Position numbers and translations under genes: made by a program. Source: Manduca sexta (taxonomy: Eukaryota; Arthropoda; Insecta; Lepidoptera; Sphingidae). Taken from it: a DNA stretch of 64,000 nt. Numbering within the stretch: the first letter of the stretch is position 1; the number at the start of each line of letters is the position of its first letter. Where the stretch lies: positions 7,068,001 to 7,132,000 of the forward strand of contig NC_051120.1 in the NCBI RefSeq assembly GCF_014839805.1, read 5' to 3'. Under the pieces are notes generated by a model. It saw only the letters and a list, made by a program, of their open reading frames with translations, searched no databases and was not told where the DNA came from. This document shows, piece by piece, positions 3,701 to 30,578 of this stretch.

Positions 3701-6700
3701 ATGGACTAAAGCAAAACCAGAGGCATAGCCAAGCCGTTGCCAACATCTATATTATAGTAACAATACATGTATCAATTAGTTGTTACTAACCAGGTATCTG
3801 AACCCAAGGCGTCCAAGCCGTCGTCTTGCGAACTTCACAGGGGCGCATGTCACACGCCTGCTTCTCCACCTCGGGCCCGTCACAGTCCGCACCGCCGTGT
3901 AATGGCGCGGGGCTTCCGCACAGGCGCCGCCTCTCACGCATGCCCCCCGCCGGCCCGCAGCCCACCCCGCCTGAACTGGTACATGGGGACCACGGGCCCC
4001 ACGGAGACCAGCCACCGTCTACTGGCGCCAGCGCCGGATCTGGAGGATTTTTTTTGTTTGAATTTGAATAAGAAACGAGCTTATTATATTTTTGTGTAAA
4101 CAAATCCACCAAGCTGTAAAAACTATCATGCTATATGTTTCACAGCATAATAAGAAAAACTTCTTAGGGTTCATTCGTTACTTTTTCTTCCTTTAAATTG
4201 AAAATAAAACACGATTCTTCTGTCAACAATGATATGCTTACAGATACATTTGCTATTCTATAGAAGAAATCACTCAAGAGTTTTGTAATTGCGCACCACA
4301 AAAACCGGTAAAGATCTTTGCTAATACTGTGCTACAAAACCCAATCCCTAAAAAGATTTGCATGTTTATAGAGACCCACCTGGACACGGCGGCAGATTGT
4401 GGCAGTATATGTCGTCGACGTCGATGCCGACGCAGACGCGGCCGCCGTGGCGCGGCTCGGGCGAGCTGCACGTGCGCCGGCGCGACTTGCATATATATAG
4501 AGACCCACCTGGACACGGCGGCAGATTGTGGCAGTATATGTCGTCGACGTCGATGCCGACGCAGACGCGGCCGCCGTGGCGCGGCTCGGGCGAGCTGCAC
4601 GTGCGCCGGCGCGACTTGCATATATATAGAGACCCACCTGGACACGGCGGCAGATTGTGGCAGTATATGTCGTCGACGTCGATGCCGACGCAGACGCGGC
4701 CGCCGTGGCGCGGCTCGGGCGAGCTGCACGTGCGCCGGCGCGACTTGCATATATATAGAGACCCACCTGGACACGGCGGCAGATTGTGGCAGTATATGTC
4801 GTCGACGTCGATGCCGACGCAGACGCGGCCGCCGTGGCGCGGCTCGGGCGAGCTGCACGTGCGCCGGCGCGACTTGCATATATATAGAGACCCACCTGGA
4901 CACGGCGGCAGATTGTGGCAGTATATGTCGTCGACGTCGATGCCGACGCAGACGCGGCCGCCGTGGCGCGGCTCGGGCGAGCTGCACGTGCGCCGGCGCG
5001 ACTTGCATATATATAGAGACCCACCTGGACACGGCGGCAGATTGTGGCAGTATATGTCGTCGACGTCGATGCCGACGCAGACGCGGCCGCCGTGGCGCGG
5101 CTCGGGCGAGCTGCACGTGCGCCGGCGCGACTTGCATATATATAGAGACCCACCTGGACACGGCGGCAGATTGTGGCAGTATATGTCGTCGACGTCGATG
5201 CCGACGCAGACGCGGCCGCCGTGGCGCGGCTCGGGCGAGCTGCACGTGCGCCGGCGCGACTTGCATATATATAGAGACCCACCTGGACACGGCGGCAGAT
5301 TGTGGCAGTATATGTCGTCGACGTCGATGCCGACGCAGACGCGGCCGCCGTGGCGCGGCTCGGGCGAGCTGCACGTGCGCCGGCGCGACTTGCATATATA
5401 TAGAGACCCACCTGGACACGGCGGCAGATTGTGGCAGTATATGTCGTCGACGTCGATGCCGACGCAGACGCGGCCGCCGTGGCGCGGCTCGGGCGAGCTG
5501 CACGTGCGCCGGCGCGACTTGCATATATATAGAGACCCACCTGGACACGGCGGCAGATTGTGGCAGTATATGTCGTCGACGTCGATGCCGACGCAGACGC
5601 GGCCGCCGTGGCGCGGCTCGGGCGAGCTGCACGTGCGCCGGCGCGACTTGCATATATATAGAGACCCACCTGGACACGGCGGCAGATTGTGGCAGTATAT
5701 GTCGTCGACGTCGATGCCGACGCAGACGCGGCCGCCGTGGCGCGGTTCGGGCGAGCTGCACGTGCGCCGGCGCGACTTGCATATATATAGAGACCCACCT
5801 GGACACGGCGGCAGATTGTGGCAGTATATGTCGTCGACGTCGATGCCGACGCAGACGCGGCCGCCGTGGCGCGGCTCGGGCGAGCTGCACGTGCGCCGGC
5901 GCGACTTGCATATATATAGAGACCCACCTGGACACGGCGGCAGATTGTGGCAGTATATGTCGTCGACGTCGATGCCGACGCAGACGCGGCCGCCGTGGCG
6001 CGGCTCGGGCGAGCTGCACGTGCGCCGGCGCGACTTGCATATATATAGAGACCCACCTGGACACGGCGGCAGATTGTGGCAGTATATGTCGTCGACGTCG
6101 ATGCCGACGCAGACGCGGCCGCCGTGGCGCGGCTCGGGCGAGCTGCACGTGCGCCGGCGCGACTTGCATATATATAGAGACCCACCTGGACACGGCGGCA
6201 GATTGTGGCAGTATATGTCGTCGACGTCGATGCCGACGCAGACGCGGCCGCCGTGGCGCGGCTCGGGCGAGCTGCACGTGCGCCGGCGCGACTTGCATAT
6301 ATATAGAGACCCACCTGGACACGGCGGCAGATTGTGGCAGTATATGTCGTCGACGTCGATGCCGACGCAGACGCGGCCGCCGTGGCGCGGCTCGGGCGAG
6401 CTGCACGTGCGCCGGCGCGACTTGCATATATATAGAGACCCACCTGGACACGGCGGCAGATTGTGGCAGTATATGTCGTCGACGTCGATGCCGACGCAGA
6501 CGCGGCCGCCGTGGCGCGGTTTCGGGCGAGCTGCACGTGCGCCGGCGCGACTTGCATATATATAGAGACCCACCTGGACACGGCGGCAGATTGTGGCAGT
6601 ATATGTCGTCGACGTCGATGCCGACGCAGACGCGGCCGCCGTGGCGCGGCTCGGGCGAGCTGCACGTGCGCCGGCGCGACTTGCATATATATAGAGACCC

Positions 6701-9700
6701 ACCTGGACACGGCGGCAGATTGTGGCAGTATATGTCGTCGACGTCGATGCCGACGCAGACGCGGCCGCCGTGGCGCGGCTCGGGCGAGCTGCACGTGCGC
6801 CGGCGCGACTTGCATATATATAGAGACCCACCTGGACACGGCGGCAGATTGTGGCAGTATATGTCGTCGACGTCGATGCCGACGCAGACGCGGCCGCCGT
6901 GGCGCGGCTCGGGCGAGCTGCACGTGCGCCGGCGCGACTTCACCGCGATGCCGCACGGCGCCGAGCACTCCGACCACGCGGACCACGCCGACCACCCGCC
7001 GTGCACCGTGCAGTTCGTCACCGATATACTTGAACCTGGAATTAAGTGAAAATAGTTCTAGTAATATTATATTTGTTGGCTGGCAGCCTCGGGGATAAAC
7101 AAAACTGCAGATTTACGGAGCACAAGGACGTGCATTTAATAAGAAAAACAATTAGCTACCACTAAATGGTCGCGGGCACGATCGATGCGACGCCAGCGCA
7201 TCGTACTTACCTAGTTATACTTATGTGACACGGAACATTTAACGGCGCGGTATAATGAATATAGCTATAGCTAGGCACACTTTCGCAACTTCGTGTATTA
7301 ACAATATTGACAACCAATCACTAGTGAATTGCCGTAACTAGGGCGATGCCAACGGTGCCAAGGAATAGAGGCTTGTCCCTGGATGGCCGCGGAAGTATCC
7401 AGCTCAAGACCAAGTTTTGTGTTATTCACCGTAATTACAGCTCGAATTGGCCGCATAAAAAGCTAGTTACAGCTCTGACCCGATGCCAAAACAATGATCA
7501 AACTTGAACACCTTTTGCAAAGCCCATAAAGTTACCCTTAGTATTTCTCATCAAACTTTGATTAAACTTTAAACTTATCAATTTTGTCTTGAAAAATTTC
7601 TGTCTACTATATCTCTTCAGTCTCTAGAAACAATAATCACGCTCGCGCCTAATTCTTAACTCCGGATCATTGACAGGAATAATCCAATGAAACAATTTTT
7701 AGACATACAAACTTTATTCTGTTTGGCCCATTTTTGCTAACGATACTAAAGTAGAGATTAAAATCATTTATTGAAAAGCTATTGCGAGCTTCCAATATGT
7801 TGATCTGGAAATGTTAACGAGTGACCCATTCTTTTGTATTGCTTTGTATGACGAGACGAGCTTGCCGTTCGCCTGATGGTAAGCGATACGACCATAAACA
7901 GCAGAAACACCATCCAACACCTTGAATTACAAAGTATTGTATTCCACTGCGTTCGCCATCCTGAGACATGAGATGTAAGTCTTATTATGTCTAGTAGTCA
8001 CACTGGCTACAATAGCCCTGGCCATGTTTAACAATGGACATCCTGCGACTGACGATGATGATGATAATAATGATTGAAAAGCTATAAAATTTACCTTTGC
8101 AAGCCTGTCCGCCATTCGCCGGCTTAGGATTGTCACAACGTCGTGTCCGACATTTACACATATCGGGCTTGTCGTCTCCGTAGATGGAGTGAGATGTACC
8201 GTCCTGCATGCATGACTCCCAATCCGACCAGGCCGACCAGCCACCGTCAACTAAAACAACATACAAAGGAATAAGGAAAGAATAATATCAGCCCTGTTTT
8301 TCACAAAAAAGTAATATGAAGAAACTGAGTAGTACAGAAAACTTAAATAACATTTATTTTTATTTTATTTTATTTATTAGGGATTACCAACAAAATTTAC
8401 AATATTACATACAAATGACTAAAACAAAAAAAAAACATTTGGACTAGTTGCAATTCTAATAACAGGCAACCACAACATGCGCAAGGTTAGAAAAAAATAA
8501 TTCATATAAAAATAAAAAGAAAAATGGTTAACAATATAAATCTATGTATATAAATAAGACGACCATAAGAGATGAGACAACTATAAAAAGGTTTAGAAGT
8601 ATTTTAACTTAGTTCATAAAAGGCAGTTGAACTACAAAATTGATCTCATTACAAGCATGCGCAAGAGTCAAAATCATCGAAATAAAAAAGCAGTTCGACT
8701 TTGGCATTAGAGCAGGAAAAGAAAGATCAATATTGACTATTACTAAAATGGAAAATGACACAAATATAGTAATATAAATATAATTTGGCCTCGTTACACC
8801 TTCGCACATCCAAAAATCATTAGTAATCAATTGACATTGTTAATAATTATAGAAATGTAATGAAGTCGACTTTTTGAGATACGTAGGTGTGCAAACAACC
8901 AAAATTGTACATCGTGGGCGCCATTCATAAATCAATTGAATGAACTTTCGTATAAGGACGGAACAAACAAATTAAACATGCAAAGGTTGATTTAGAATTT
9001 AGAGTATTTTGTTGTCTCTGAATATCAGAATCAAGTAGACGGAAGTATGTAGGAGGTAGAGAAACTGATAATTTTGTTCTAGATATATTTATGTATAGGT
9101 ACGAATGGCATGGCTCAAGCCAAAAGTAATCATTTAACATCAGGTGATCAGTTGTGTCCTCCCAAAGTATACAGCAAGCGGCGATAGCCTAGTTGGTTGT
9201 GGAACGGACTGCCGAGACGACTGTCCGCAGGTTCAAATCCCAAGGGCTGTGTGCCCTCTGACTTCTAGAAAATTATGTATTCTTTGTGAATTATCGCTTG
9301 CTTTACCGGTGAAGGATAACCTCGTGAAGAAACCTGCATAGCTGAGAAATTCTTTATAGGAATTTTCGAGGGTCTGAAGTCTACCAATTCGCACTAGGCC
9401 AGCGTGGTGGACTAAGGCCTAATCTCTCTCAGTAGTAGAGGAGGCTCGTGCAACGTGGGACAGTATATAATACAGGGCTGATATTATTATATCAAAGCAT
9501 GTCAAAGCAGATGTTTTGACATGTAACTGGAGTGAGCTCACACATATTATGTTGCATGTAATTTGTTATGGCTTAGCTTTTTTTTTTTTTTTTTTTTTTG
9601 TTAGATAATTTATTTTTATAATTACTTAGTTGTAGAATATAGTTGTAAGTTATTATGTTATTATAGTTCCGCCAATCGAATTGGGTGTAACCTGTAATGG

Positions 9701-18700: not shown

Positions 18701-21700
18701 TGCAAAATAGTACCCGCAGTATTATTGCTAAAGACAGAAAGAAAGAAAGAAGAGATTTCCAACTCCTCCCTATCTTTCTATTTGATTAATTTCGTTGCGG
18801 GATAGTGACATATTAGTTTTCCCTGAGACTCGCCGAGCTTCACTGCTCGGTGTCACAAAATGTGTGCCACTGCTGATCCTGGCTTACAGGAGTTGTAGTG
18901 GTGGGTGTGAGGGCGGGAAAGTCTCTATTGCTAAAGACACATCACCAACCGAAAAGTTTACAATGTTTTCCACTACACCGTAATGCTTTTAAATTTTTAT
19001 AACTATTTTATATAATTCATATTCATAGTTCAATTAGCACATTAACATCAGTATGTGCTAATATGTATCTGTTATGTGTAAAAAAACACTCAGTCATAAG
19101 TAAACATGTACATGGATTGCACTAAGCTCTAAGACAAGCGCGTGAGTTGAATTCCGAATGAAGTGTCATTTAAATTGGTTAAAATCTAGGAATCTTAAAC
19201 TTCGAGCACATTCTTTGACCAACCACGATCTTGTCTCAATACGCATTGATGAAAGCAAATGATTCTGTGAATGGTTCGAAATTGTTATTTTTAAACTTAT
19301 ATCATTAAAATAAAGACAAAATATTTAGCATAGCATTATTATCTCCGAATAAATTAACGTAATAATAATGCTTACTAAACTTAGTTTTTCCAGCACGCGA
19401 AAGTATCGCGTTCTATTTTTAAATCGGATAATAATTAAGTTTTTCTATTCACTATCACCATGGAATATGAAAATGTGTCCGATAAATCTTAATAAATTCG
19501 ACCCCTATTATATAGAATTTAACATAGCTGTCTAATCGTGGTAATGATGCTGATATAGCTATATTTAAAGAAGGTATAAACCCTAATATGTAACTTAAAA
19601 CTCCATCCAAAAATAAAAGCAAATTAAACATGAATTTCGCATCAAGCCCAAAGTACATTAAGACCGCATTTTTATTCAGTAAAATTTAATTAAATTGAGA
19701 TACTAAGCGGGACATTCCGTTAACAACCTGTTGGTTACATTGATAACAACTATCTTATATCATAAGTTGTCAGTGTAGGTGAATGACTCAGGTTGTTTGC
19801 TCAACTCATTAGAACGTGGATACACTGTTATCATTAAATGTTATGGTGTTTTTTTATGATTTATGTATCTGGCCGCTGACATGCCATGTGGCGTTTGAGT
19901 TACAACGCATGCGCTCTGACTGTTTGACAATTTCGAAACAGTTTAATGTATCGAGCTGCGAGCATTAAACGGACGGAACGGTTGTGTTTAAACATATAAT
20001 GCAACGGTAACTAGAACCGCGTGAGATCTGGATTATAAGAACTAAATCATTGTGTCAATAGCTTTTAAAACGGCTTCGATTTACACATAAATAAAATAAA
20101 AATCCATTCATTTAGCTTACAAGCATTATGATCACTGCCATTCATTATAGCTTAATGATTAAAACATAAACTTAACTTACTGCCACATATCCTTATAAGT
20201 CCTGACATAATACTTGAACTAGATGTCAATTGACAGAGATCGATCACATGTCAACAACTTGGATCATGTTCTAAATTTAAAATCCTCGCTATTCTTAAAG
20301 GCGTTTATTTTTAACACTACAATATTAAACCTATGTACAACAGGCTTAAGAGAATGTCATACTGGATCCAGCGTAAGTACGACAAGTCCATATTTTCTCT
20401 AGGATGTCGTAAAAGTCGACTATACAAAGTTGCATGATGAGCATAATTCCATTGAATATTGATGAGAAATAGCCCTTGTGGACTTCTATATCTTCTTAAG
20501 ATATTCAAAAAGGAATATAATTTTAAACTATCGACAAACTTTTCTAAATATACATTCTAAACCACTCCTAATACAATGTAGTCAAAATACAATGTCAACC
20601 GACGTATAATCGTCACCGGTATTAAACCTTCATTTACCATCCTTGGGTACTCACACTAAGAACCAAAACAGGCTCTTCTTTAGGCTTAATGTTATTTTCA
20701 TCTAATGTAATCACAGCTTTATTTACTATAAATGGTTTAGGCCACGTTTAGACACTCACCTTGCGCCCACGATCAGTTGGTCCCTTGCCACATCGAATAG
20801 CAGTTGCGAAAATGATTTAGAGCTCTTATCTTCAAATATATCGCTGTCCACCGCCAGCAGATCTGTAATTTTAAATCAATTATGAAAACGGAAATTACTT
20901 ATTATTAGATGAGATTTATTTACATAAATTATTATTTGCGGTTTAATAAGTTTTGCATGGGATTGGATTCCTAAATTATACCGGACTATGAGAGTAGAGT
21001 TGGTCGCCAGTTTAAAGCGCCATTTCTGCAGACAATTATAAATAATAGCAACAGCATCTATAAAAATTCTGCATAAGAATGCATTATGGTTGTCTCATTA
21101 AGCCCAGTTAATAGAGAACAAAATCGTGTTGCTGAGAGTTTCTAGTCACTTCTTCTTCACAGCGATAACACGATGGTAGATTGCTAGTGGTAGTATATAT
21201 TTTATATCCGACCGGATAGCGACCACCGTACACAAGGTGTTGAAACCCGCCATAGTGGCACATGTAAGTGTGTCACGTTTCGGGATCAGGCTGTCTATAT
21301 CCGTTGCCAACAGAAAAAAAAATGAATGAGAATAAAGGAAGTTTTGTGTTTGAGTTTAGACGAAGCCTGAATATTATGTTAAATTAATATCAACGTTGAG
21401 ACGCATGATAGTAAAAACTATAGCTATATTTATTCTAAAGTATGTATATTGTATATTGGCGGCGATAGCCTAGTTGGGTATGGAACGGACTGCCGAGACG
21501 AATGTCCGCAGGTTCAAATCCCAAGGGCACACACCTCTGACTTTTCTAAAAAATCATGTGTGTATTCTTTGTGAATTTATCGTTCGCTTTAACGGTGAAG
21601 GAAAACATCATGAGAAAACCTGCACATCTGAGAAGTTCTCTATAGGAATTTCGGCCTAATCCCTCTCAGTAGTAGACGAGGTCCGTGCTCAGCAGTGGGC

Positions 21701-21720: not shown

Positions 21721-21802
<82 letters not shown>

Positions 21803-27800: not shown

Positions 27801-30578
27801 ATGAATCAGTATACAACACACATGCAATATACATTACCTTTTAAATAAGACCCATGTATTCAAGTTTAAAGACTAATAACATTTGTCTATGAATTTCAAT
27901 ATAAGCAACATTGTTTAAGGTTATAGCTTAAGGTCCATTTTTCATACATTTTGTTTCACCTTTAATCTGGGTAACTAAACAAGTATTGACAAGTAAAGAA
28001 TTTAAATTCACGTCTAGTTAGTGATTAGTTCTCGCAGTTGAAAGAAAAACGTAAAAATAATTAATATGCATGGATATTTCGGCCTTTAAAATTTCGTCGT
28101 ATTAACCCAGATTAAAGGTTTAACAAAATGTATGAAAAATGGACCTTAAGCTATAACCTTAAATGTGGTTGACTATAAGCGCCGGTAATTCATTACAACA
28201 TTTATATGGTAATCTTTTTTTTTATTAAAACGTGCACGGCAAAGTGACCACACTGCAGCTGATGGTAAGTGGAGTGGGGTCCAATAGAATGTCAACTGAC
28301 GAGAGATGATTACCCCTCGACAGTCGACACAATTATGCCGGCTTGTTAGAACTGTATATTCATAGACTGATTCCGAAACACGACACACTTACATGGACCA
28401 CTTTGGCAGGTTTTAACACCTTGTGTACGGTGGTCGGTTTCCGGGCGGAAAATCATTCTAATAAATATATTTAAAAAAATCTTTTCAGTAATAACAGTAA
28501 TTGTCAGGATAAAAGCTTTTTAGTCTTCATTAAACAATGAATCAAATGTTCTTATTATAAATTTTACATTTATCGGTTTATTGTAAGTGGGTTTTAGTGT
28601 ACAAAACTGTGAATTATTTGGCTTGTAGGTGACGTGGCCTCATCGATACTATAGTAGGATCTACTGCAACGTTCGACTACAAACGAATATGTGCACAATC
28701 CACATCAATTTCTCCACAGACCTACATAAAAACTGTATGTCCTATTTACCTATCAATCAAGTAATAAATTCAATTAAAGTATGATAGCTTCACAATGCAG
28801 TGCGCAGAATTTGTACGACTTCGTAAAGGAAAGATTTATTGACAGCGCATTCGCGTCGTGTTTTCGATATTGATGAGATATTGAATCGGAATAACTAACA
28901 GCTCGGTTACACAGCGCGAGGGTGCGTGCGAGTTGGTTTGGTAAGTTACTGGAGAGCACGGTTTTTGGACTTTATATATTGCTGTTAATAATTTAAACTC
29001 GTCTTTCCTTCTGCAAAAATTATGCCCAATATCATCCATCAATAACGAATATTTTCAACAAATATATCAATTTATTTTTCAGATTTTTTTTTCACTCTAT
29101 AGTTTATTGTGAAATGAGAATATTGCATGTGCGCAAGTGTATTTCTGACGATAAGTATGATGTACCGCAGCGGCGAATTCTCTTAATACTATTGGCATTA
29201 GAGCATGTAAAAATAAAATTACTCATTGATATTTATTATAATCGAAACTAACACTTGCTTAATCTACATCCTCATCATCATCATATTGTAGTGTTATTTT
29301 CAAGAATATGTGTATGTGGTTTCATTCATTAACTGAATGTAAAAATGACCCTGTATATTTTTGTTTCCACTCATGTATTGATTTAAAAAAATAATTTCAC
29401 CTGACACAACACAGCTGTCTTCATAACTCAGTAGACGCAAAAGTAACACCCTACAACTCATATAACGCTACATAAATCATAGGTATTCAATATTACGTAG
29501 CTGTACATTTTGACGAGCATGCGAATTCCCGATAGGCTGCCACTATCGGACAGCTACTCGCATTGTGTAACCACACATTCCATAACAACCTTTGACTGTT
29601 TCATTGTTTCACACGATTCAATGTGCGTTTATAGAAATACTGAACTGAGTGCAATAATATTCGTGATCATTATGTATGCCAAATACGAAATGGTAGGTAA
29701 TACGTTCACGAGGTAGATTCAAAAACTAAGTTATTTAAAATTTATTTAAAAGTGTAAACAAAATGTAAATCCGTTATTGGCCTTAAGATAAGTGTATCAG
29801 ATTGTGTCACTCTAGAATTAAGGGCTGTGGATTTTTAAATAAATAAATAAATAAAGTATTAAATAACGCAAGTTTTTGACATTCGCATTCTCTACATGTC
29901 TTCAGCAAGCAAATATTTTGTATATAAAAGTATACAGTAAACAATTCCAACTGCATCGAATTAACTGCGCCAAATATATCGTTTACACCGCGTAATAAGC
30001 TCATGTCCAAACACATAAGTAGCTGAGCAAATTATAAATTTTAAATTGTAGTAACTTTTGTCACCGTATTGACTAAAGTTTACTGTTTACAAGAATAAAT
30101 TTCAGAGACTTTATTTTAAATTATATAGAGATGTGAATATTCCGATTGAACTTATGGTAAAGGACCGTTTTAAGTTTTGAATTAAGTTTAGACCTACTAG
30201 GGTTTACGTAAATGTCGAGTCGGACAAAACTCATCCAACATTTCCAGTACATAGGTAACTCAATAATATCACCTGATCATAAGTATTATAACTATGTCCA
30301 AAAATAAAACTATTTATGACATTTACGTAATCCGTTTACCAAATCATTAAAAAATATACGGTGTTATAAAAAATACTAATCAATTCATGGCTTGATATCT
30401 TCAATTATAATCAGTTAAAAAAATACTAGTTCGTTTATGAACAGAACTTGTTTGTAGATAATAAAGTCGCAATTAGCTCACCTTGTCGATTTATTATCCT
30501 GAAATCATCTTCAGGTAGCTCTCCTTTGCTGAGCGCTGCTAACAGTATTATGGCGGCTATTCCGTATATTGGTCCCAT
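664..30578 (-). CDS. Sema5c: Class-5 transmembrane semaphorin, 17 coding exons, 3' end outside window
   Basis: Spliced reading of 17 minus-strand exons (30482-30578, 20760-20862, 13182-13389, 12749-12903, 12311-12470, 11570-11766, 11096-11257, 10465-10762, 9745-9955, 8095-8250, 6832-7035, 3791-4039, 3519-3601, 3200-3419, 2795-2947, 2035-2184, 664-783) gives 975 codons with GT-AG borders and consistent phase. Order seen: signal peptide, sema domain, PSI, seven TSRs, start of a transmembrane helix. Sema followed by PSI and seven TSRs is diagnostic of class 5. Known role of the family: cell-surface guidance cue signalling with plexins; fly Sema5c works with Plexin A in collective epithelial migration. 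The remaining helix and cytoplasmic tail are missing only because the window ends. The Sema5c name is by domain architecture; orthology was not tested. Confidence 0.93.
1225..1560 (+). repeat. Dispersed repeat family E, interrupted by a MITE
   Basis: Matches 18,345-18,640 almost base for base (ACTACATAGTATAAAACAAA ... TGATTCAAGAGGAAGG ... CATCCATTAAATAGTG). The match breaks exactly at TTAA where the MITE at 1373-1521 is inserted, and resumes after it. Confidence 0.85.
1373..1521. mobile_element. Palindromic MITE with TTAA target duplication (piggyBac-like), copy 1
   Basis: Starts CCATTAAAGCATCGGAATG and ends with its reverse complement; the terminal 39 bp pair with two mismatches. Flanked by TTAA at 1369-1372 and 1522-1525. 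The uninterrupted family E copy near 18,490 has a single TTAA there, an empty site. TTAA duplication is the mark of piggyBac-type transposition. No transposase is present. 149 bp. Confidence 0.85.
2035..2184 (-). CDS. Sema5c: Coding exon 16: thrombospondin type-1 repeat 7
   Basis: Acceptor ATGTTGCAG, donor ACG|GTAACA. Encodes residues 886-935: SEGGWGPWGAWGAC, ERVRRRACAAGACVG and QVARCG. Extremely G+C-rich, in contrast to the AT-rich flanks, so the other frames are also open; only this frame keeps phase with exons 15 and 17 and gives the W-x-x-W motif and cysteines. 150 bp, phase 1 on both sides. Confidence 0.88.
2305..2771. mobile_element. Probable small DNA transposon with terminal inverted repeats in intron 15
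   Basis: Begins TAGGGTTGCCAAC and ends with the exact reverse complement GTTGGCAACCCTA. Outside lie CTCCTCC and CTCCGCC, a possible 7-8 bp target duplication with one mismatch, as in hAT elements. The interior is AT-rich and non-coding. It makes up most of intron 15 and stops 23 bp from the exon 15 donor. Confidence 0.6.
2795..2947 (-). CDS. Sema5c: Coding exon 15: thrombospondin type-1 repeat 6
   Basis: Acceptor TTGTCCAG, donor CAG|GTGGGT. Encodes residues 835-885: GEWSCWSEWSSCSGSCG, HRTRTRACLSSRGC and TVCVPTC, a compact TSR. 153 bp, phase 1 on both sides. A probable DNA transposon ends 23 bp from the donor. Confidence 0.92.
3200..3419 (-). CDS. Sema5c: Coding exon 14: end of TSR 4 and TSR 5
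   Basis: Acceptor TTATTTCAG, donor CTG|GTAAGA. Encodes residues 762-834: LSVAREEERYC closes TSR 4; EGGWEDWEAWEPCSAPCGGG and QTRTRRC with CNTHPC form a canonical TSR 5. Phase 0 to 1. Confidence 0.94.
3519..3601 (-). CDS. Sema5c: Coding exon 13: thrombospondin type-1 repeat 4, middle part
   Basis: Acceptor TTGTAACAG; donor AGT|GTAAAT. Encodes residues 734-761: NTSDGSYTEKRFKFVCKAPS followed by PEQIKVS; class-5 semaphorins have an RYRF-C-KA sequence here. An alternative donor (AAA|GTCAGT) lies 6 bp upstream and would drop V-S; I prefer GTAAAT because the spacing to the next cysteine then matches other class-5 proteins as I recall them. One NTS sequon. Phase 1 to 0. Confidence 0.82.
3791..4039 (-). 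CDS. Sema5c: Coding exon 12: thrombospondin type-1 repeat 3 and start of repeat 4
   Basis: Acceptor TCCTCCAG, donor CTG|GTTAGT. Encodes residues 651-733: VDGGWSPWGPWSPC, GGMRERRRLCGSPAPLHGG, CDMRPC, then TTAWTPW, which opens the degenerate fourth TSR. 249 bp, phase 1 on both sides. Confidence 0.92.
4354..6940 (-). repeat. 129-bp tandem array, about 20 copies, made of half a TSR exon plus splice donor
   Basis: The same 129-bp unit recurs with AGACCC (plus strand) at 4372, 4501, 4630 and so on to 6824. The only differences I see are a C-to-T at 5746 and a C-to-T plus one inserted T at 6520-6522. On the minus strand each unit is 106 bp of TSR-2 coding sequence (from SRRRTC to LPPCP), the donor CAG|GTGGGT, and 23 bp of intron start. 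In the copy farthest from exon 11 the intron part reads TATAAACATGCAAATC, which looks like the original intron; internal copies read TATATATATGCAAG joined back to exon sequence. The unit is in frame (43 codons, no stop). Five of six frames stay open, which explains several apparent ORFs of 700-900 codons here. Confidence 0.97.
6832..7035 (-). CDS. Sema5c: Coding exon 11: thrombospondin type-1 repeat 2, source of the 129-bp array
   Basis: Acceptor TAATTCCAG, donor CCAG|GTGGGT. Encodes residues 583-650: SSISVTNCTVHGGWSAWSAW, CSAPCGIAV, RRRTCSSPEPRHGGRVCVG and CHNLPPCP, a canonical TSR. I chose the first donor met in transcription direction. About 19 further copies of the exon's second half, each with the same donor, follow in the intron, so the true 3' border may vary. 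204 bp, phase 1 at both ends. Confidence 0.85.
7835..7990 (+). repeat. Dispersed repeat family C, copy 1
   Basis: Shares TTCGCCTGATGGTAAGCGAT, ACAAAGTATTGT and GACATGAGATG with the opposite-strand copy at 22,560-22,740. Non-coding. Confidence 0.7.
7991..8070 (-). repeat. LINE-type 3' tail ending in a trinucleotide run
   Basis: Read on the minus strand: ATCATCATCATCGTCAG, GCAGGATGTCCATTGTTAAA and CATGGCC. This is the common lepidopteran tail with ATGTCCACTGCTGAACATAGG; a related piece is at 26,765-26,800. Confidence 0.55.
8095..8250 (-). CDS. Sema5c: Coding exon 10: thrombospondin type-1 repeat 1
   Basis: Acceptor GTTGTTTTAG, donor AAG|GTAAAT. Encodes residues 531-582: VDGGWSAWSDWESC, with the C-mannosylation type W-x-x-W motif, followed by KCRTRRCDNPKPANGGQACK. 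This atypical first repeat has a longer insert between its first cysteines. 156 bp, phase 1 on both sides. A LINE tail in the intron stops about 25 bp from the donor. Confidence 0.93.
9178..9490 (+). mobile_element. tRNA-derived SINE, family A, copy 1
   Basis: Head GCGATAGCCTAGTTGG resembles a Pol III A box and GCAGGTTCAAATCCC a B box, about 40 bp apart as in tRNA genes. The body has CTTTGTGAATTATCGCTT, CAATTCGCACTAGGCCAGCG, GTAGTAGAGGAGG and a tail TACAGGGCTGATATTATTA. Five other copies in this window share the order. Confidence 0.85.
9578..9718. repeat. Poly-T run and AATA-rich repeat tail
   Basis: An uninterrupted run of about 22 T (9578-9599) followed by AT-rich sequence ending in AAATAAATAAATA next to exon 9. 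Probably a small retroelement remnant, type not recognised. Confidence 0.4.
9745..9955 (-). CDS. Sema5c: Coding exon 9: end of sema domain and PSI domain
   Basis: Acceptor GGTCGGCAG, donor CTG|GTAACG. Encodes residues 461-530. The YIGSSSGVVRLGAARC strand closes the propeller; the PSI domain follows with cysteines at about 479, 488, 496 and 505 and the hallmark DPHCGWD. Strongly G+C-rich compared with its introns, giving shadow ORFs on both strands. Ends in phase 1, the first of a run of phase-1 borders. Confidence 0.93.
10465..10762 (-). CDS. Sema5c: Coding exon 8: C-terminal sema domain
   Basis: Acceptor TTATTTCAG, donor ACG|GTGAGT. Encodes residues 361-460: a YHLMYEAVLPISGAPIYKV stretch, RFTHVTVDV, then VAFVATDSGYVLKLAVLPR, matching the last blades of the propeller (family pattern D-V-x-F-x-G-T-D-x-G). 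Longest coding exon. Ends in phase 0. Confidence 0.94.
11096..11257 (-). CDS. Sema5c: Coding exon 7: sema domain
   Basis: Acceptor TTTGTGATCAG, donor TAG|GTAAAT. Encodes residues 307-360 including GSAVCVYNMSDIHAAFEGPY, the conserved S-A-V-C-x-Y-x-M-x-D-I element, and a class-5 style KVQDSRTFTW. One NMS sequon. Ends in phase 2. Confidence 0.95.
11570..11766 (-). CDS. Sema5c: Coding exon 6: sema domain
   Basis: Acceptor CTTTGCAG, donor TAC|GTGAGT. Encodes residues 242-306: IIYSRIARVCKNDSGG, then WSTFLKARLKCLVPGDIPFY, the most recognisable semaphorin block (R-V-C-K-N-D-x-G-G; F-L-K-A-R-L-x-C). Ends in phase 2. Confidence 0.96.
12311..12470 (-). CDS. Sema5c: Coding exon 5: sema domain
   Basis: Acceptor TTTGTACAG, donor AAG|GTATGT. 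Encodes residues 188-241. Visible motifs are LNEPQFVGSFEDDRFVYFVY and REIAVEYMNCGK, typical semaphorin propeller strands (the family pattern is FVGS..., YFFFRE.A.E...CGK). Ends in phase 0. Confidence 0.95.
12749..12903 (-). CDS. Sema5c: Coding exon 4: sema domain
   Basis: Acceptor GTTTTCAG, donor CAG|GTAATT. Encodes residues 137-187: IESINTVSESVTGVALSPYN followed by NVTAVLASNGDYYAGTPTDF, matching the sema propeller motif for a blade ending in a TAICR-type strand. One N-glycosylation sequon (NVT). Ends in phase 2. Confidence 0.94.
13182..13389 (-). CDS. Sema5c: Coding exon 3: sema domain
   Basis: Acceptor TTTTTCTAG, donor GAG|GTTGGT. Encodes residues 67-136, starting DVLYRLSLRGLRELE and containing the semaphorin signature KIFACGTNAFSPICSW, with C-Q-x-K-G-Q preceding it. 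Ends in phase 0. Confidence 0.95.
13866..13990 (-). repeat. Dispersed repeat family H fragment
   Basis: Pattern TTTTATC-TTTTT-CTCCCGAAGTTT ... GATCACGGGG ... AAAAGTCAGTTACAATATCT, shared with 23,870-24,005, 35,048-35,230 and 45,600-45,740. Non-coding. Confidence 0.6.
15626..15950 (-). mobile_element. tRNA-derived SINE, family A, copy 2
   Basis: Reverse-oriented: tail at the left (ATCAACCCTGTGTTATATAC), body with AGTCCACCACACTGACCTAG, head at the right (CGTCACCAAGCTAGGCTATC). Diverged from copy 1. Confidence 0.8.
18345..18640 (+). repeat. Dispersed repeat family E, intact copy
   Basis: Uninterrupted version of the repeat at 1.2 kb; continues into CCGCGCGAAGCCAGAGCG and CGTGCGAAGCCGGGGC. Provides the empty site for the TTAA MITE. 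Probably a Helitron-type or other non-autonomous element; ends not defined. Confidence 0.75.
20760..20862 (-). CDS. Sema5c: Coding exon 2: N-terminal sema domain
   Basis: Acceptor AATTACAG and donor AAG|GTGAGT. With one base from exon 1 it encodes residues 33-66, including FSQLLFDVARDQLIVGAR, the conserved first blade of the sema propeller. It is an isolated 103-bp exon between introns of 9.6 and 7.4 kb; it lies too deep in non-coding DNA to be seen as a long ORF. Ends in phase 2. Confidence 0.92.
21186..21312 (-). repeat. Dispersed repeat family B, partial copy 2
   Basis: Opposite orientation: ATATCCGACCGGATAGCGAC, ACACAAGGTGTTGAAACCCG and GGGATCAGGCTG. Only the part distal to the GAGAGATGATTACC core remains. 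Confidence 0.75.
21457..21724 (+). mobile_element. tRNA-derived SINE, family A, copy 3, internally deleted
   Basis: Well-preserved head (GGCGATAGCCTAGTTGGG, GCAGGTTCAAATCCCAAGGG). A block of about 65 bp that carries GCACTAGGCCAGCG in other copies is missing between GGAATTTC and GGCCTAATCC. The tail runs directly into the TA microsatellite. Confidence 0.85.
21725..21799. repeat. (TA)n microsatellite
   Basis: About 75 bp of uninterrupted TA, apparently expanded from the ATATTATTA tail of the SINE immediately to the left. Likely length-polymorphic. Confidence 0.95.
22560..22740 (-). repeat. Dispersed repeat family C, copy 2
   Basis: Reverse complement relation to 7,835-7,990: CATCTCATGTCTCAACATGG, ACAATACTTTGTATATCAAG and CGCTTACCATCAGGCGAACG. 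A shorter fragment with the same end lies near 59,350. Confidence 0.7.
23145..23420 (+). repeat. Dispersed repeat family G, two tandem units
   Basis: CAGTTCGGAAAG...AGAGAAGAACAGGCAAGAAA appears twice about 120 bp apart, with GTGTTGCTCTTTTCA after each; a diverged single unit is at 38,280-38,470. Both loci start with TTATACATTATTTAGATTCC, so the element has a defined left end. Confidence 0.7.
23870..24005 (-). repeat. Dispersed repeat family H, copy
   Basis: Same order as at 13.9 kb: CGGATTTTATCGCTGTTTTT, CTTCCGTCATTTCGAAAACT, ATAATCACGAGGG, AAAAGTCAAAGTTACAATAT. Confidence 0.6.
27328..27648 (-). mobile_element. tRNA-derived SINE, family A, copy 4
   Basis: Reverse-oriented, near full length and the best preserved: tail ATCAGCCCTGTATTATATAC at left, head with GGGATTTGAACCTGCGGAC (B box) and CCAACTAGGCTATCGC (A box) at right. 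Confidence 0.88.
27915..28162. mobile_element. Inverted-repeat element flanked by TTAA
   Basis: Left GGTTATAGCTTAAGGTCC and onward through CATACATTTTGTTTCACCTT pairs with the reverse complement at right over about 55 bp (ATTAACCCAGATTAAAGG to AGCTATAACC). TTAA lies at both ends (27915-27918, 28159-28162). The internal spacer is AT-rich and non-coding. Confidence 0.75.
28210..28448 (+). repeat. Dispersed repeat family B, copy 3
   Basis: Near full length: GTGCACGGCAAAGTGACC, GGTAAGTGGAGTGGGGTCC, GAGAGATGATTACCCCTCG, CAGTCGACACAATTATGCCG, ACACCTTGTGTACGGTGG. It begins next to the TTAA element. Confidence 0.85.

Follow-up and report, generated by a model that had tools for sequence, protein, structure and literature searches.

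A donor-bearing 129-bp minisatellite at an exon-intron junction of Sema5c in Manduca sexta, probably spliced out with its intron

When the end of an exon is multiplied together with its splice donor, which of the identical donors closes the exon, and what becomes of the surplus copies? This question is raised by Sema5c of the hornworm Manduca sexta, which lies on the minus strand of the 64,000-nt stretch of DNA analysed here (henceforth the window; positions 7,068,001 to 7,132,000 of contig NC_051120.1, assembly GCF_014839805.1, with all coordinates below counted from its first base). In this assembly the 3' half of coding exon 11, encoding half of a thrombospondin type-1 repeat (TSR), forms with its donor and 20-22 bp of intron an array of 20 units of 129 bp (4358..6940, minus strand); the array brings 20 identical donors, and the first of them gives an open reading frame and the annotated protein. 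We consider it probable that the array is a 20-copy minisatellite, likely variable in copy number, whose 19 extra copies are removed together with intron 11, as the first donor would be chosen in most splicing events.

An array with a donor in every unit

At 4358-6940 Tandem Repeats Finder (TRF) reported 20.0 head-to-tail copies with a period of 129 and 99% matches, and a 44-bp core of the unit occurs 20 times in the window versus not at all in 100 shuffles. The spacing from unit to unit is 129 bp in 18 of 19 cases and 130 bp in the other, and the window contains no N bases. A query with 121 of the 129 unit bases, run against the whole genome (470,002,661 bases, 4056 contigs; repeat counts from such searches are lower bounds), found 20 matches, all of them within the array. 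In gene orientation the unit is made up of 109 exonic and 20 intronic nt, or of 107 and 22, because the AA at the junction is assignable to either side; it encodes five cysteines, four from the TSR and one from the translated intron stub. Three copies depart from the common sequence: the 130-bp copy (6435..6564, minus strand), fourth from the exon-11 acceptor, has TT in place of C at 6520-6522 (a substitution plus one inserted base); the copy at 5661..5789 (minus strand), 6 units away, has a lone C to T change at 5746, the altered C being the one replaced by TT in the 130-bp copy; and the intron stub of the last, leftmost copy (4358..4370, minus strand) differs at two bases (TATAAACATG versus TATATATATG in the other 19 copies, minus strand) and holds in the TSR register a TAA that is absent from those. 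The array matched no Rfam family at gathering score, and neither such families nor tRNAs were found anywhere in the window; the predicted RNA fold of two units was nothing special (z = -1.67, matched by 13 of 200 shuffles).

Joining 15 exons on the minus strand yields 906 stop-free codons that match P0001 ('semaphorin-5A isoform X2 [Manduca sexta]', 1100 aa) with 100% identity over the full query. Counted among these 15, the array exon comes ninth, and two further N-terminal coding exons precede it (located by tblastn at about 30474-30578 and at 20744-20923), which makes it coding exon 11 (6832..7035, minus strand; the second TSR, TSP_1 E 3.4e-11), 204 nt long when spliced at the first donor. 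This 5'-most donor, CAG|GTGGGT at 6826..6834, leads to the annotated protein; 18 identical donors separate it from the last, intron-proximal CAG|GTGGGT at 4374..4382 (both on the minus strand; donor positions 6832, 6703, 6574, 6444 and onwards to 4380), and CCAG|GTGGGTCTCTAT is present in 20/20 units. The motif CAG|GTGGGT also ends coding exon 15 of Sema5c (at 2795). The first-pass annotation had described about 20 near-identical, head-to-tail copies of a half-TSR unit with its own donor in exon 11 of Sema5c, one copy carrying a substitution and another a substitution plus an insertion; all of this is borne out (the exon number when coding exons are counted), with the qualification that near-identity is a property of this assembly, that the two differences of the leftmost stub were absent from the earlier list, and that the 23 bp of intron ascribed to each unit were one to three too many.

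The first donor (6832) meets the annotated acceptor of exon 12 (4039; TCCTCCAG) in a phase 1 junction. With this acceptor the frame stays open from donors 1, 2 and 3, the joined part then coding for 906, 949 and 992 aa, respectively. From donors 4-20 it meets a stop within exon 12 owing to the frameshift in the 130-bp copy, whose extra base may be a consensus error. An acceptor upstream (tttttacag, first base 4113) would extend exon 12 by 74 nt (4040..4113, minus strand) and reverse the pattern, donors 4-20 being open with it and donors 1-3 not. It emerged from a scan for AGs, and the translation of the extension is present in a gene model, P0026 ('hypothetical protein O3G_MSEX005330 [Manduca sexta]'). 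Two AGs (4122 and 4113) out of the 21 scanned downstream of the last donor and ahead of exon 12 keep donor 20 open, which need be no more than chance. As a separate observation, the T-rich tttttacag at 4113 resembles a usual acceptor more than does the pyrimidine-poor annotated one at 4039.

On the explanation that we favour, a break in exon 11 would have been joined to a break 20-22 bp into the intron over a two-base AA overlap, producing a first duplication, and the number of units would then have been raised by unequal exchange or slippage. With its acceptor and the first donor as its borders, the 204-nt exon would be recognised during transcription, and the remaining donors would end up inside an intron of 2.8 kb instead of 340 bp. 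Leakage to donor 2 would lengthen the protein in frame by 43 residues and leakage to donor 3 by 86, each 43 with an odd number of cysteines (five). Leakage to donors 4-20 with the usual acceptor would end at the stop in exon 12, and most of the leaked mRNAs would therefore be useless. What counts for this explanation is that the donor-1 join is open and identical to P0001, and a variable number of tandem repeats (VNTR) in human ABCA7, discussed below, appears to agree with splicing at the first donor. Furthermore, the spacer between the last cysteine of TSR2 and the tryptophan of TSR3 is mostly constant, so that an insertion there is not usual, which favours removal of the array by splicing: in the 134 proteins surveyed (of 204, the 70 short matches being omitted) it measures 12 residues in 83, another value from 9 to 18 in 44, 24 in P0204 and 67 in P0026, with 5 unaligned, and among the 37 best-ranked ones (mostly lepidopteran, judged by name) it measures 12 in 33, P0001 included, the rest being P0026 and three unaligned proteins.

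Several points weigh against this explanation. Where equal donors are duplicated, the intron-proximal one is reportedly often the winner, which would favour donor 20. The annotated acceptor at 4039 is the poorest in pyrimidines among the 15 acceptors compared, and the lack of the TAA in 19 of the 20 copies may hint toward coding use, albeit one that could date from a single event before amplification. The splicing of P0001 at donor 1 is annotation rather than a read count; the name isoform X2 implies an isoform X1, which may use another donor (P0001 represents a cluster with two member sequences). P0026, the lone gene model found to include the array, uses later donors. We did not accept it as proof of actual splicing: it is a poor model in which coding exon 10 is left out and joins are made inside exons. 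Lastly, in the available portion of a report on a 68-bp junction duplication of CBS (PMC2630376), the more distal of the two sites is strongly favoured.

Other readings of the array

Were the later donors regularly used, the array would be a coding expansion and Sema5c would form a ladder of proteins with extra 43-residue half-TSR blocks, a reading that we regard as unlikely. It would fit the length of the unit (129 bp being 43 codons), which has no stop in the TSR frame or in any of the three sense frames, the scarcity of the TAA, the fact that each of the 20 donors is joinable to an open frame (1-3 via 4039, 4-20 via 4113), and a Pfam search (E up to 1) that found TSP_1 in four stretches of exon 11 plus two extra units plus exon 12. 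In the same search, however, a lone unit had no match, and P0026, in spite of its three units, showed TSP_1 in just two stretches; five cysteines per unit would leave one unpaired, the residues past copy 4 are a different, frame-shifted sequence, and the spacer is usually constant in relatives. The open frames themselves weigh little, since, with a length divisible by 3, a frame open in one unit remains so along the whole array, and in 2000 shuffles of the unit three open sense frames arose in 3.1% and an open first frame in 42%. The long frames over the array (857-927 aa on the minus strand, 938 and 737 aa on the plus strand) were accordingly rejected as evidence of a coding array; the unit is open in 5 of 6 frames, and at least 5 open frames occurred in 1.0% of the 2000 dinucleotide shuffles (which do not preserve the coding constraint of the exonic part), a share that, like the 3.1%, is low enough to mention. 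Nor did the protein databases, which would miss any array lying within an intron in relatives, point to longer products: a search for isoforms of 841-2677 aa (7991 candidates scored, those sharing most words, with one member displayed per cluster) returned no M. sexta protein besides P0001 among the best 120 of 436 matches, and among 70 matches of 85-269 aa no fragment with two or three units was named M. sexta or near-identical. The variant in which donors 1-3 pair with 4039 and donors 4-20 with 4113, giving 20 full-length proteins that grow by 43 residues per unit, with the unit number setting the amount of extra extracellular sequence in each moth, is in our judgement very unlikely. The array had at first been called a coding minisatellite; the term holds for its sequence, and probably fails for the mRNA beyond the first copy. 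Equally improbable as that variant would be a dominant intron-proximal donor, with the array acting as a poison exon that lowers Sema5c: donor 20 does leave the shortest intron (340 bp), and with acceptor 4039 it leads to the stop in exon 12, but such splicing would presumably knock out a conserved gene of a laboratory animal, and the annotated protein uses donor 1.

That the array is a product of assembly, one or a few true copies having been turned into 20 by nanopore consensus and short-read polishing, we hold to be quite improbable. The copies are almost identical, and the inserted T of the odd copy sits in a run of T, a possible consensus slip; the passages available from the assembly report (PMC8022704) describe a nanopore/Canu assembly polished with nanopolish and then, through Racon, with Illumina reads of 150 bp, and such reads can in principle make 129-bp copies seem more alike than they truly are. 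The near-identity that had at first been read as a sign of a very young or homogenised array may thus in part reflect polishing. The nanopore read N50 given in the same passages (9,156 bp; PMC8022704) is, on the other hand, well above 2.6 kb, so that reads were able to span the array, and the last copy differs as the true end of an array would. Moreover, P0026 carries three units in direct succession, with GGSLYICK, the translated unit junction of the array, at both joins, and its contig (1,243,802 bp) is not that of the window (C6; 12,410,953 bp) and appears to belong to another M. sexta assembly. To judge from the contig size, P0026 and its locus tag O3G_MSEX would come from Msex_1.0. This older assembly was built from 454 reads and has a scaffold N50 of 664 kb (PMC8022704). 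With P0026 as a second witness, an artefact is an unlikely source of the tandem state, and the suspicion of an assembly product that came with the first-pass annotation is weakened to the same degree; what the witness covers is the tandem state and not the number 20, as repeats in that contig may be collapsed, and both this number and the insertion in copy 4 are possibly wrong. Hardly probable at all, finally, is a splice ratchet, in which an acceptor-like AG set against the donor of each unit would permit stepwise removal, any in-register step restoring the same exon end. AG and GT are indeed juxtaposed in 20/20 units, as acceptor and donor are at ratchet points in the accessible part of a published account (PMC8605326), and the upstream pyrimidine share (0.62) equals the median value of the 15 acceptors in the gene (which span 0.31-0.75); the upstream T share (0.25), by contrast, lies under that of 14 of 15 real acceptors (0.31-0.62, with 4039 at 0.12), the region is GC-rich coding sequence, and the intron measures 2.8 kb, whereas the published abstracts consulted place the ratchet mode in long introns. 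The unit-internal AG (GTGCAG|CT), also considered as the acceptor of a mini-exon, is an unlikely one, with an upstream T share of 0.12 and 86 nt to the donor, a distance not divisible by 3.

The Sema5c gene around the array

Among ten pieces of the gene submitted to Pfam, Sema was found in one (E 5.6e-12) and PSI in one (1.3e-8), and TSP_1 passed the cut-off in three coding exons (11, 12 and 14) and fell short of it in a fourth (16). No match (E up to 0.1) was obtained for coding exon 10 or for three short pieces of the Sema region. The combination of Sema, PSI and several TSP_1 domains, together with the identity to P0001, points to a semaphorin 5 (an assignment scored on these three domains, with the membrane span left unscored). 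Coding exon 10 (8095..8250, minus strand), upstream of the array exon, is taken as the first TSR by its WSAWSDW pattern, and coding exon 12 (3791..4039, minus strand), placed by Pfam and splice joining, is the third. The remaining C-terminal coding sequence is found at the left end of the window and, left of the window, in L010.

Other repeats occur in the gene. The intron that directly precedes the array exon contains an interspersed repeat (7835-7975), for which all 40 scored candidates genome-wide, its own site included, were at least 90% identical (40 scored of 3270 first-look candidates), and another intron of Sema5c contains an (AT)40 microsatellite (21721-21799). TRF also reported short imperfect GC-rich repeats at 2083-2177, in another TSR exon, and at 6959-6995, in the first half of exon 11; the GC content of the window is otherwise mostly 30-40%. 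Among the proteins compared, the Sema5c-like P0191 of Phthorimaea operculella (1922 aa) has an additional PF06136 domain and is perhaps a fused gene model.

Known repeats at exon-intron junctions

A literature search returned nothing that addresses this array, as judged from titles and abstracts, and the known systems nearest to it differ in what is copied. Intron gain through tandem duplication of an AGGT segment (the model of Rogers, with a potato RdRp case, in the part available of PMC4974935) likewise copies splice signals in tandem. We rejected it for the hornworm array: the duplicated GT is the donor that intron 11 already possessed, no new intron was needed, and the unit-internal AG is T-poor. 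Ratchet points of recursive splicing share with every hornworm unit an AG placed directly against GT, and are set apart from it by the short hornworm intron and by an upstream tract that is GC-rich and T-poor; in the hornworm, the resemblance is one of sequence alone.

With head-to-tail units laid over the junction and a donor in each, we place the array, as a candidate VNTR, among the exon-intron-junction VNTRs. The closest precedent for donor choice is the VNTR in intron 18 of ABCA7, for which the available passages (PMC5954066) report a 25-bp unit that starts with a GT donor, a first donor that is canonical, retention of one unit at 2 +/- 1% (as we understand the passage), and, with longer arrays, more skipping of exon 19 and less expression; unit retention is there unaffected by array length, which makes it less likely that donor choice simply follows the number of units. 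The likeness lies in a unit that contains a donor; use of the first one would be a second shared trait if splicing in the hornworm follows the annotated X2, to which donor 1 leads. The ABCA7 unit, however, is wholly intronic, 25 bp long and present in about 12 to 427 units, and that of the hornworm is mostly exon.

In plan the array is matched by the human CBS VNTR c.1444_1467+7(16_21), described in the available part of its report (PMC2630376) as 16-21 copies of a 31-bp unit of constant length with single-base differences between units. By its name this unit comprises an exon end (24 bases), the donor and 7 intron bases, the same layout as in the hornworm. The two differ in that 31 bp is not divisible by 3, whereas the hornworm unit (107-109 plus 20-22) amounts to 43 codons and half a domain of an insect guidance gene; moreover, the CBS VNTR is polymorphic, and the hornworm array is known here from the sequence of one assembly. 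By the title of Lievers et al. (2001), the CBS VNTR reportedly goes with reduced enzyme activity.

We argue that 20 identical donors, nearly all in the same context, in a conserved developmental gene amount to a natural test of 5' splice site choice and that, if the array varies between animals, the effect of unit number could be read from RNA without engineering; the case also illustrates that gene annotation is able to hide such an array completely. The array had been termed unusual, a description that has to be narrowed, since the same plan already exists in the 31-bp VNTR of CBS and the 25-bp VNTR of ABCA7: what is new is its placement in an insect gene and a unit of 43 codons that spans half a domain.

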